From assembly GCA_902553145.1 (NCBI GenBank), contig CACDKD010000004.1, forward strand, positions 1-64,000: DNA of 64,000 nucleotides. The letters run 5' to 3'. The notes below the pieces were generated by a model. That model worked only from the letters and a program-made list of their open reading frames with translations. It was not told the DNA's origin and did not search any database. Both the position numbers and the translations under genes were made by a program. The stretch is from an uncultured Gammaproteobacteria bacterium. GTDB taxonomy: Bacteria; Pseudomonadota; Gammaproteobacteria; Steroidobacterales; UBA11654. Below, piece by piece: positions 2,815-58,520 of the stretch; within the stretch, counting starts at the first letter, position 1, and every line of letters starts with the position of its first letter.

Positions 2815-3264
2815 CTATCTTCTTGATTTAAAGAAGTTTTGCATCAAAGCCTTGCACTCATTCTCCATGACTCCGCCCAACACATTGATTTTATGATTCA
2901 AATCAGAGGAATCAGAGAGATCGAATGCAGATCCAGCTGCGCCTGATCGTGGATCAAATGCTCCAAAAATCAATCTCTCAATCCGGGCTTGAATCATTGC
3001 TCCCATGCACATCACGCAAGGCTCCAAAGTAACCACCAATGTTCCACCAATCCTGTGATTCTTTTTTGCCTTTGCCGCTTTCCTCAAGACAATGATTTCT
3101 GCATGGCCGGTTGGATCATGATTTGCAATGCTCATGTTTCCAGATTCTGCAATGACTTGATTGTCATCAAAATAAACAGCACCGACTGGCACCTCGCCAT
3201 TTGATTCGCTGATCATTGCCTGATCATAGGCAAGTTTCATCAGGGCCTGTGGATCGATATACAA
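2815..3264 (-). CDS. tadA: tRNA-specific adenosine deaminase
   Basis: Converts adenosine-34 of the tRNA-Arg anticodon to inosine. The cytidine/deoxycytidylate deaminase fold is clear: the zinc ligand and catalytic Glu are in GHAEIIVLRKAA, and the two cysteine ligands in LEPCVMCMGAMI, followed by RIERLIFGAFDPRSGAAGS, a TadA signature. The length of 149 residues is normal for a short TadA. The start at 3264 is TTG; an ATG at 3240 is the alternative, but the residues before it resemble the N-terminal helix of TadA. It lies 5 bp after the DUF1330 gene, so it is probably cotranscribed with it. Confidence 0.92.
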   Translation of the reverse strand: MYIDPQALMKLAYDQAMISESNGEVPVGAVYFDDNQVIAESGNMSIANHDPTGHAEIIVLRKAAKAKKNHRIGGTLVVTLEPCVMCMGAMIQARIERLIFGAFDPRSGAAGSAFDLSDSSDLNHKINVLGGVMENECKALMQNFFKSRR

Positions 3265-54673: not shown

Positions 54674-55780
54674 TTATTTATCAAGAAGATTGCTAATGAC
54701 TTTCTCAAAGGATACAAATTTGAAGTTTTGATTAATCATTCTTCCATCCAATGATTTATTTTCTCCGTCTTGTACAACCAAAAGTCCCTTCGGATAGCCT
54801 GGGAGTGGCTCTGATGTGACTGCAATTCCATCGGTGTCTTGGACGCCATCAATTGCATCTGTGTCAGCAATTGCAAAGGTCCCTATGAACTCATAAGGAT
54901 TAAGTCTTTCATAAATCTTAAACTCAGAACTACCTTGTGAAGATAGAATAATAAATCCATCCTTTTCTGTGTTTTTGTATATGGCGACGCCTTCGGGATC
55001 GCCAACGATATTCCCTTCCCTTGAGTCGACCTCGGCAATTAAATCAAAAGTCTCTGCTTGATATGCTTTTAAGATGCCTTTATCTCCCTCTCTAGAAATG
55101 AATATTGTTTTGTTTTCATCATCGTATACACAACCCTCTGCTTCGTTGCCAATGACCTCTGGAGGCAACTCATATTCTGTAATATCAATTTGATGGGTTT
55201 TAACTGAAGCATTTAAGTTCCACTGCTGAACCGACACGCCCTCTTCTTCTGTAATCGCTGCATGCAATTCATTATTGATGATTCCCACGCAAATTCCATA
55301 AACACTCATTCCAGTATCGATTTGTTGATGCTGTATTTCTTCTGAAAATGAGTCAACGGGTTTAGATTGAAAATAATCATGCAAACCATTTGTGTCAAAT
55401 ACCCAGTAATCAATACTCCCCTTTGTTCGATTTGACATCACCAAATGAAGCTTATTGTCTTTTTCTCTTAGATCGACATTGTTAACTTTACCAAGCTTTG
55501 AATAACTCAGTTCTTCTCCATTGATGTCATAAACATAGATACCAGATTTTTTATCTGTACCAAAGATAAGCGAGAGAGCAGGATTTGCTCGATTGACCCA
55601 AATTGCCGGATCGTCTGCAGCATCATCCCCTGTAACAACAGGCGGTGTTTCAGCATTTGGAGTGACTCCAAAAGTAGGGTTTGCAAATGCAAGATCTGAA
55701 ATAAAAATAGTCAGCAAGAAGCTGACTATTTTTAAAAATTCTATTTTCCTAATTATTTTTGTAGGTAAAGCCAAGAGCAT
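54674..55780 (-). CDS. Beta-propeller phytase (3-phytase family)
   Basis: 368 residues from ATG 55780, chosen for the GGAAC site 7-8 bp before; the frame is open upstream to 55852 inside the receptor gene. A long signal peptide (h-region IVSFLLTIFISDLAFA) is followed by TGDDAADDPAIWVNRANPALS, FGTDKKSGIYVYDINGEEL, NNVDLREKD and EGCVYDDENKTIFISREGDKGI, then DPEGVAIYKN, the calcium-binding acidic motifs of beta-propeller phytases. It releases phosphate from phytate in the periplasm or outside. It overlaps the receptor stop by 32 bp; a terminator-like hairpin lies within its signal-peptide codons. Confidence 0.92.
   Translation of the reverse strand: MLLALPTKIIRKIEFLKIVSFLLTIFISDLAFANPTFGVTPNAETPPVVTGDDAADDPAIWVNRANPALSLIFGTDKKSGIYVYDINGEELSYSKLGKVNNVDLREKDNKLHLVMSNRTKGSIDYWVFDTNGLHDYFQSKPVDSFSEEIQHQQIDTGMSVYGICVGIINNELHAAITEEEGVSVQQWNLNASVKTHQIDITEYELPPEVIGNEAEGCVYDDENKTIFISREGDKGILKAYQAETFDLIAEVDSREGNIVGDPEGVAIYKNTEKDGFIILSSQGSSEFKIYERLNPYEFIGTFAIADTDAIDGVQDTDGIAVTSEPLPGYPKGLLVVQDGENKSLDGRMINQNFKFVSFEKVISNLLDK
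55703..55733 (-). terminator. Terminator-like hairpin inside the phytase signal sequence
   Basis: AAAAATAGTCAGC and GCTGACTATTTTT form a perfect 13-bp inverted repeat around a 5-base loop; on the reverse strand the 3' arm ends in a T run. It begins 16 bp after the stop of the TonB-dependent receptor, where a terminator would be expected, but it also encodes the hydrophobic core of the phytase signal peptide. Translating ribosomes could keep it open, so it may act as an attenuator. The A/T-rich arm ends make it symmetrical, so it could work on both strands. Confidence 0.7.
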
Positions 55781-58352
55781 AGGTAGTTCCGTATTCATCA
55801 TATTGTGAAAGTCGGTCATTATAACCCCAATAGTAGAATTCTGGCCTATCATTTATATTCGTGATTTCAAACGAAAATGTCAGGTTATCAGAATACTTGT
55901 ACTTAGCTTTTAGATCCCATTGCCTGTGTGGTGCAACGAATCTAGAATTTTCAACTGAGACAGTATCAATATCGTCCTCTTCATCCGCCAACCAATCGAG
56001 ATATTCGTCGCGATAGTTCATGGCGAGCCTGATGTCGAATTTGCCTTTATCGTATCCAATTGATAGGTTTTGTTGCTGATCAGATAGTTTCCTAAATGGC
56101 GTCGTAAAGGTTGAATCGTCTTCAAAGCTGAACGTGCTGTCTCCATCTGTGAATGTCAGATTCAAGGCAACATAGAATCCTTCCCAGGCTCCATCGAATT
56201 CCTGCTGGAAATTTAACTCCAGACCAGTGATGTCTGATTCATCAGCATTAATCCATGTCGTTACACCGTCATTGAACGAAATTCCATTGATCGTTGCATT
56301 CTTTTGAATCGTTTTATAAATCGCCCCGTCTATTTGTTTCAAGAACGCTCCAATGCTGAAGAAGGACAGATTGTCACCATAATATTCGTATGAAATATCA
56401 AAATTATTTGACTCATACGGGTCCAAATCTGGATTACCATACGATCCAGAAATATCTGTACCATTTATGTCGAGCTCCAAGACCGGAGCGGTTGCATTGA
56501 AAGACGGTCGTGAAAGCGATCTCCACAGCGATGCTCTCAAAATTGAGTTGTCGTCGATGAAGAACTTGTAGTTGATGCTTGGAGACACAAATGTGTGATC
56601 TTCATCAGCCATTGTGGGATTCCCATCCTGATCATATGCATTTGAATCCATCGTCATTCTTTCAATCCTCACACCCGCTGTAAGCAAGGCATTATCCATT
56701 TCCATAGAGACCATGCCGTAAGCAGAAAGAATGTCTTCCTCTGTCACATAATCCTCAACGAAAGTTTCTTCGTCATCAAGAGACAATGACCCTGTTTGAT
56801 TTCTTAATGCATAGATCATTGCAGGGTCGGCTTGTGGGCTAAAAGTTTGCCCATCAAATGGCCAGTAACCCAATGTCGTTGGACCAAAATCTGCAAGGGT
56901 TCTTTCTTGAGGATCTTCATAAAACTGCTTGTTTTTATCCACGTTCACTTCGCGTGATCTATACTTTATTCCAAATTTAACCTGAGCATCATTCCCACTG
57001 ACAATGGTGTCTTTTTCAAAGTTCATTGCGAAAGCTGCTTCAGTGTCTTCGATGACAGAATTTTCCAATTCAAGCTCTTTCCATTCGAGTTTAGAGGGAT
57101 CATAGATCTGACTGTATGAGGTGGATAGATATGGAGCCGTATTACTAGCAAACACAATCTGGCCTACAGGGTCTTTATTACCTTTTAAATTAATGCAAGA
57201 GTCTTTGTTCGCTCTAACTTCACATCTAAACGTAATGTCAGCATTTTTTGAATCGTCTTCTTCAGCGAATGAATAGGTCAATTGGTAGTCCGTTCTCCAA
57301 TCCCCAAGAAGAGTTTCTCCGCCAAAGTTTAGTGCAGTGATTGTTCTGGTTTCTTCTCTAAATCTTGTTTCAGCATCGTGGCGAATCCTGTCAGTCAACA
57401 TTGAGTCAGCCGTTGTTACCCCTGTGGCGCCCAGCTTTCCGTATTCATCTTTGTATCTTAATTCTTCATCGATGTATTCATTATGGAGTGCGCTGAAGTA
57501 GTAAGAGGTGTCGTCATCGACATCATAGCTGTAATCATAGGTCAACCCTACTCTTTCTCTGGTGAGATCATAAAACCTCATCTCCCAGTCATCATTCATT
57601 TCCTTGAGGCCTTCATCGTTGGACTCCCAACCATACCCTGTCTCATTATTGTAGGTGACAATTTGCTTTGATGAGTAAGTCACGCCTAAAACATGTCCTG
57701 AATTGTCTGAGAGAAGATCGCCGTATGTAAATGCCATTCTAGGATTGTCCTCTGATTTGGCTTGGGTGTTGTATTGAGTATCAAATTTAAATTTTAGTAA
57801 ACGATCTTTTAGCTCAGATGGTCTTTTAGTTTTAAAATCTATTCTGCCACCAATGGAATCTGCATCCTGATCAGGCGTTAAACTTTTTGAGACTTCTATT
57901 GAATCCAAAAGCTCTGTAGGCAAACCATCCAACATCACACTTCTATTACCTTCTGGCGCAGGCATTAAAGCGCCATTGATTGCAACCGAATTGAGGTCTG
58001 AACTCATCCCTCTTATTGATACATATCTTCCCTCTCCTTGATCGTTTTCAATGGAGATGCCAGATAATCTTCGAATAGATTCAGCCGCTGTCGTATCTGG
58101 AAAATTTCCGAGTGCATCAGAATCCACTACGGATAATATTCTGGCGCTCTCTCTTTGCTTATCAATTGCAGATTTAAGGCTTGCAATCGCTCCAGTTACG
58201 ACAATTTCCTCAACAGAATTGTTTGCAGCACTTGTGTCGCTTGCGACCACAGCTTCATCTGTTTCATCTATTGGATTTTCTTGTGCATTTAAGGGGTTGG
58301 ATAGAAATACTAAGATAAAAATGCTTAGAACTCTTTGTTTAGATAGTCTCAT
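55749..58352 (-). CDS. TonB-dependent receptor, phytase-linked
   Basis: 867 residues from ATG 58352 (AGGTG upstream; GTG 58364 is weaker). A signal peptide (LSIFILVFLSNPLNA) and a TonB-box-like EEIVVTGAI lead to the plug domain with ALGNFPDTTAAESIRRLSGISIENDQGEG and RYVSIRGM, LDSIEVSKSLTPDQDADSIGGRIDF, the TIGR01782-type clade. About 22 beta strands follow, ending YGTTYALGFTYKNN with a weak terminal aromatic signature. It imports a substrate across the outer membrane with the TonB operon 3 kb away. The phytase neighbour suggests phytate or other inositol phosphates; substrates of this clade vary widely (often sugars). Confidence 0.93.
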   Translation of the reverse strand: MRLSKQRVLSIFILVFLSNPLNAQENPIDETDEAVVASDTSAANNSVEEIVVTGAIASLKSAIDKQRESARILSVVDSDALGNFPDTTAAESIRRLSGISIENDQGEGRYVSIRGMSSDLNSVAINGALMPAPEGNRSVMLDGLPTELLDSIEVSKSLTPDQDADSIGGRIDFKTKRPSELKDRLLKFKFDTQYNTQAKSEDNPRMAFTYGDLLSDNSGHVLGVTYSSKQIVTYNNETGYGWESNDEGLKEMNDDWEMRFYDLTRERVGLTYDYSYDVDDDTSYYFSALHNEYIDEELRYKDEYGKLGATGVTTADSMLTDRIRHDAETRFREETRTITALNFGGETLLGDWRTDYQLTYSFAEEDDSKNADITFRCEVRANKDSCINLKGNKDPVGQIVFASNTAPYLSTSYSQIYDPSKLEWKELELENSVIEDTEAAFAMNFEKDTIVSGNDAQVKFGIKYRSREVNVDKNKQFYEDPQERTLADFGPTTLGYWPFDGQTFSPQADPAMIYALRNQTGSLSLDDEETFVEDYVTEEDILSAYGMVSMEMDNALLTAGVRIERMTMDSNAYDQDGNPTMADEDHTFVSPSINYKFFIDDNSILRASLWRSLSRPSFNATAPVLELDINGTDISGSYGNPDLDPYESNNFDISYEYYGDNLSFFSIGAFLKQIDGAIYKTIQKNATINGISFNDGVTTWINADESDITGLELNFQQEFDGAWEGFYVALNLTFTDGDSTFSFEDDSTFTTPFRKLSDQQQNLSIGYDKGKFDIRLAMNYRDEYLDWLADEEDDIDTVSVENSRFVAPHRQWDLKAKYKYSDNLTFSFEITNINDRPEFYYWGYNDRLSQYDEYGTTYALGFTYKNN

Positions 58353-58520
58353 TTTTATGTACACCTAAATTATATTTAATGACAGGTGTAATTCTCCCTA
58401 AAAACTATTAAAGATTTGTTACAACCGGACAAAAAATATTTTTTGGCATTACCGGAAGAAAGATTTTTATAAATTCAATTGAAATTTTGTTGATAGCATT
58501 ACATCAGAAGGAAGATCATT

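Follow-up and report, generated by a model that had tools for sequence, protein, structure and literature searches.

Leaky intrinsic terminators within operons set unequal expression of neighboring genes, and in Escherichia coli the terminator of the frd operon serves as the ampC attenuator, which lies in a non-coding leader. A different kind of dual use has emerged from 3'-end mapping in the same bacterium, where 3' ends and RNAs were found inside ORFs, most of the tested cases being processed RNAs (PMC7815308). For marine bacteria, the accessible part of a report on Citromicrobium describes a TonB-dependent transporter adjoining a phytase gene (PMC3400609). Hence, leaky intra-operon terminators, functional RNA ends inside ORFs and the receptor–phytase pairing are all already known. 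A literature search, with most subscription journals outside its scope, found no conserved, terminator-like hairpin doubling as the code for a signal peptide and covarying in the wobble register. The hairpin between a receptor and a phytase gene described here is, as judged from the genomes compared, a rare and well-conserved dual-use element of this kind.

The receptor–phytase junction and its hairpin

The window, i.e., the whole stretch of 64,000 nucleotides that was analyzed, carries the following features around this junction:

55749–58364, minus strand: TonB-dependent receptor gene, with its stop codon TAG at 55751–55749
54674–55852, minus strand: beta-propeller phytase frame from the ORF list, open across the hairpin and reaching into the receptor gene
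55796–55801, minus strand: ATGATG, most likely the phytase start region, lying about 50 nt ahead of the receptor stop where the receptor codons read Gln-Tyr-Asp
55682–55801, minus strand: phytase signal-peptide codons (MMNTELPMLLALPTKIIRKIEFLKIVSFLLTIFISDLAFA), with cleavage expected, by eye, after AFA
55735–55748, minus strand: 14-nt spacer from the receptor stop to the hairpin, open in the phytase frame
55702–55734, minus strand: 14-bp hairpin with loop TTCTT (55720–55716) and a U-rich 3' arm, probably an intrinsic terminator of the receptor mRNA or else a 3'-end element of that mRNA

The product of the upstream gene is a TonB-dependent receptor (Pfam TonB_dep_Rec_b-barrel, 8.6e-31; Plug, 2e-14), whose substrate is presumed to be phytate or an inositol phosphate, and the downstream gene matches the Pfam family Phytase (PF02333) at 4.4e-56, with 190.9 bits against a curated cut-off of 21. 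The phytase frame is +1 relative to the receptor, has no in-frame stop and has its ATG inside receptor codons, a layout found in all 15 distinct sequences of the nested type defined below; by this layout the two would form an overlapping (translationally coupled) gene pair, with initiation predicted at the internal ATG. At least one ATG is present at the ATGATG position in each of the 15 distinct nested loci, and also in L152, a locus without the receptor. The start-codon inventory gives an ATG at 55780–55778 and a TTG at 55774–55772 as later in-frame options, while L120 and L121 have a TTG right after the receptor stop as an alternative phytase start. From the hairpin to the mature enzyme, the sole in-frame ATG, GTG or TTG in the inventory is a TTG in the loop, and a start there would leave no usable signal peptide. 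The sequence-only reading had maintained that there is no phytase start downstream of the hairpin, and its description holds. Since no useful in-frame start exists past the hairpin, the h-region of the signal peptide is read from the hairpin's own bases: the most hydrophobic 11-residue N-terminal stretch is IVSFLLTIFIS (mean KD 2.60), and the hairpin encodes IVSFLLTIF, flanked by the basic stretch TKIIRKIEFLK and the cleavage motif LAFA.

Read along the minus strand from 55734 to 55702, the hairpin is TAAAAATAGTCAGC-TTCTT-GCTGACTATTTTTA, followed by TTTCAG, with the U-rich tract TATTTTTATTT on the 3' side of the stem. It has 14 perfect pairs including the outer U–A, 4 of the 14 being G–C in this AT-rich genome, and with its short loop of 5 nt it has a stability of −17.5 kcal/mol. 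The perfect 13-bp core, 5-base loop and T run pointed out earlier are indeed there, though the core starts 15 nt rather than 16 nt past the receptor stop. RNA folding places the hairpin in both the MFE and the centroid structures, and a 130-nt stretch has a z of −3.4 against dinucleotide shuffles. A stock consensus terminator scan of the window missed it, probably because the 3' Us pair into the stem, and an Rfam covariance-model search of the region gave only a chance match (13.7 bits, E 0.9).

A scan of 464 kb of this genome, made up of the window and another 400 kb in stretches, recovered equally strong hairpin-plus-T sites at 0.63 per kb of intergenic versus 0.009 per kb of coding DNA, a 69-fold difference, with a concentration 10–30 nt past stop codons, where the window hairpin, at 14 nt, also falls. 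This intergenic density and the peak after stops suggest that the organism uses such hairpins as terminators. The terminator identity proposed by the sequence-only reading is thus well supported by position and by the genome-wide pattern, from which we infer termination itself. The window hairpin exceeds chance expectation and is the only truly nested one at a gene start in the sample; two other hairpins near predicted gene starts proved to be start-codon mispredictions, with an ATG just past each hairpin.

Conservation and covariation of the stem

MED656 (99%) and SAR86 genomes (about 39–61% for the phytase) are the nearest relatives. Among 107 genomes of one SAR86 family, 78 have the phytase and 40 the receptor, which adjoins the phytase in 39 of these, the contigs of the 40th breaking at this point. 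All 39 assembled junctions have the hairpin, 11–19 nt past the receptor stop. The hairpin of 17 junctions lies nested within the phytase signal codons, like that of the window (class A). In the remaining 22 (class B), it comes after the receptor stop and ahead of a separate phytase ATG, which by eye is about 10–35 nt past the hairpin. The hairpin depends on the presence of the receptor: no such element accompanies phytases with another upstream gene in the SAR86 genomes examined. Receptors lacking a phytase neighbor were sought in the 107 genomes, and none was found. Most copies, nested and un-nested alike, have T-rich 3' arms or tails, with a nested pair (L141 and L143) having a poor U-tract, GTTAGTCTTAAT. 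Outside SAR86, six loci (L028, L030, L032, L045, L051 and L056) have a long upstream ORF ending 140–205 nt before the mature phytase, and in two of these (L030 and L032) a hairpin of at least 10 bp, as judged by its stem, just past the stop is followed by a separate phytase start.

Two further observations concern the arrangement of these loci. Where SAR86 genomes lack the receptor (L124–L139, as well as L022, L112 and L145–L156), the phytase lies behind other genes, which encode either a ~310-aa protein ending in FSIGIEHKF or a ~200-aa protein ending in LNWINQSS. In the MED656 assembly (G002), the phytase junction is present in two near-identical copies (L008 and L009), each on a contig of its own, perhaps reflecting a strain mixture rather than a duplication.

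Across the 15 distinct class A sequences used for covariation, 92.8% of the stem cells are paired and both partners have changed in 8 of 13 pairs, yielding a covariation score of 0.415 versus 0.137 ± 0.025 for shuffles and at most 0.097 with slid partners. Four wobble–wobble pairs hold 20 of the 28 double-change cells. All 15 share one codon register, with the five-base loop beginning at a codon boundary; as a consequence, third positions pair with third positions and the stem can drift by paired synonymous changes—e.g., GCA...CTT versus GCC...CTG, synonymous on both sides. When the same peptides are recoded synonymously, an equally strong stem arises with p of 0 to 0.003 per locus; for nine signal peptides of receptor-less phytases, taken as a control, the corresponding p is 0.13–1.0. 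The conservation and covariation in SAR86, the rarity of such a stem under recoding and its absence or weakening where there is no receptor together indicate that the stem is selected in addition to the protein. The alignment of orthologous loci proposed in the sequence-only reading thus finds a stem conserved far beyond what the signal peptide needs, and bears out the dual use claimed there: every related receptor-bearing locus keeps it, with compensatory and largely synonymous changes, so that the contrary case of the same overlap with no conserved stem does not occur.

In two separate lineages, namely the window (55734–55702) and L013/L094, an Ala..Ala combination in the signal peptide has jointly become Val..Thr, because a middle stem pair changed from C–G to U–A. 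Here, the pairing of the RNA appears to dictate which residues of the signal peptide change together.

Selection on the coding side is visible in the spacing. In class A, 13 of 13 distinct junctions place the mature phytase at a distance of 1 mod 3 from the receptor stop, although five lengths occur; none of them has an in-frame stop, and the five-base loop keeps one register in all 13. The 14 class B junctions occupy all three residues mod 3, 12 of them contain stops, and their loops vary between 4, 5 and 7. A complementary case is L152, whose genome (G095) has no receptor; what is left of the receptor's last codons, broken by receptor-frame stops, persists upstream of the phytase frame at about 3000–3150. 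The phytase frame itself is unbroken above the hairpin (MINNEPLMKLDSPMTTYKNSKKIAISLLAIFLSF) and retains the signal peptide and an ATG that corresponds to the first one in the relatives of L152, and the hairpin of this locus is weaker (−11.0 versus −15.9 kcal/mol in L010), with a loop of 9 instead of 5 and a recoding p of 0.026. This single lineage supports the view that the phytase may initiate independently upstream of the hairpin and that the hairpin would serve the receptor.

Mechanism, alternatives and history

The explanation that we consider probable is that the hairpin, 14 nt past the receptor stop, would form the 3' end of the receptor mRNA, most likely by acting as a leaky intrinsic terminator. 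Some RNA polymerases would read through it to give a receptor–phytase mRNA, on which the phytase would be translated from the ATG in the last codons of the receptor gene, and ribosomes crossing the hairpin would translate it into the hydrophobic core of the signal peptide. Termination and its leakiness, the ratio of the two products, the exact start codon and export of the phytase are all predictions from comparative data, as is the suggestion in the sequence-only reading that most receptor mRNA would end here. In class B, the phytase ATG is too near the hairpin for a promoter between them, and hence read-through or an internal promoter further upstream would be needed there too. A Shine–Dalgarno-like sequence for the phytase start was not demonstrated, which counts against this explanation, as do the low number of G–C pairs in the window stem (4), the poor U-tract of L141 and L143 and the alternative TTG start in L120 and L121.

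Its main rival, which we regard as unlikely, is that the stem is a 3'-end stabilizer or processing boundary, with a longer RNA being trimmed to the hairpin such that receptor mRNA exceeds phytase mRNA. This accords with the invariable position of the stem just past the receptor stop and with its retention in L141 and L143 despite their poor U-tract; nevertheless, the prevalence of T-rich arms or tails and the terminator positions occupied by such hairpins in this genome speak for termination. Less probable still is the translation-dependent switch put forward in the sequence-only reading, wherein ribosomes at the phytase start melt the hairpin and block termination, making phytase expression dependent on translation. 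The nested lineages do have the phytase start ahead of the hairpin and a frame open through it; however, 22 genomes hold the hairpin ahead of the phytase start, implying that its retention is independent of phytase ribosomes, and RNA polymerase would usually have passed the hairpin before a ribosome that initiates ~81 nt upstream could get there.

Two other accounts have very little to commend them. A phytase made as a +1 frameshift product of the receptor, with no start of its own, would fit its constant +1 frame in nested loci, but no conserved slippery sequence is seen by eye, a signal peptide fused onto the end of a receptor makes no sense, and the same phytase N-terminus in the receptor-less L152 rules such a fusion out; we accordingly hold it to be highly improbable. 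The chance that the hairpin is an unselected by-product of signal-peptide codons, the upstream Lys AAA/AAG being complementary to the downstream Phe/Leu TTT/CTT, is smaller yet and practically nil. The encoding of KK...FF by A- and T-tracts does aid the outer pairs, but receptor-less phytases with ordinary signal peptides have no stem and un-nested hairpins persist where nothing is encoded, and the synonymous recoding and third-position covariation rule this origin out.

As for the history of the nested state, class A lies on both sides of class B in the phytase and receptor trees, and the nested L021, in the same register, falls inside or beside class B. On the simplest reading of these trees, nesting would be ancestral and have been lost twice, the hairpin being retained both times. 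In the class B locus L100, the phytase frame continues uninterrupted across the hairpin in the old register (NKARLLLALLFKKMK), and this stretch is probably what remains of a former signal peptide. In L121 and L122, the receptor clusters with class B, and the junction and phytase N-terminus resemble those of L120; these two loci are likely to represent a recombinant operon with a breakpoint near the conserved RLSQYDEYG codons. A terminator of the A-tract/stem/U-tract form, if in the right frame, reads Lys-Lys...hydrophobic...Phe-Phe and thus amounts to a ready-made signal peptide. We therefore raise, as a tentative and rather doubtful scenario, that the phytase signal peptide arose from the receptor terminator, with nesting being ancestral, pairing steering the peptide, and two later lineages escaping as the start moved downstream.

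Dual use in relation to known systems

These observations offer a clear comparative case of a single stretch of DNA under two kinds of selection, one for a hairpin at an RNA 3' end and the other for the export signal of a protein. Its synonymous base pairs covary throughout a major marine clade of small-genome ocean bacteria. The observations also indicate that RNA-level selection can act on synonymous sites within signal peptides, and suggest a general rule that terminators and signal peptides share an A-rich/T-rich code, such that a terminator can be co-opted as a signal peptide by a gene that comes to lie behind it.

The locus resembles leaky intra-operon terminators in having a U-rich-sided hairpin just past the upstream stop of a two-gene unit, whose downstream gene presumably needs read-through; it differs from them in that the SAR86 element lies inside the downstream coding sequence, encodes a functional protein segment and shows paired conservation. 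As in the ampC/frd case, the terminator of one operon takes on a second role in the next gene, but unlike the ampC attenuator with its non-coding leader, the SAR86 hairpin is translated. The Citromicrobium locus (PMC3400609) has the same gene pairing and the same presumed substrate, while gene overlap and a nested hairpin are not described in the accessible part of that report. With the ORF-internal 3' ends of E. coli (PMC7815308), the SAR86 element shares the principle of one DNA encoding a protein and a functional RNA end; in contrast to them, it would end the upstream gene, and its conservation is manifested in covariation.
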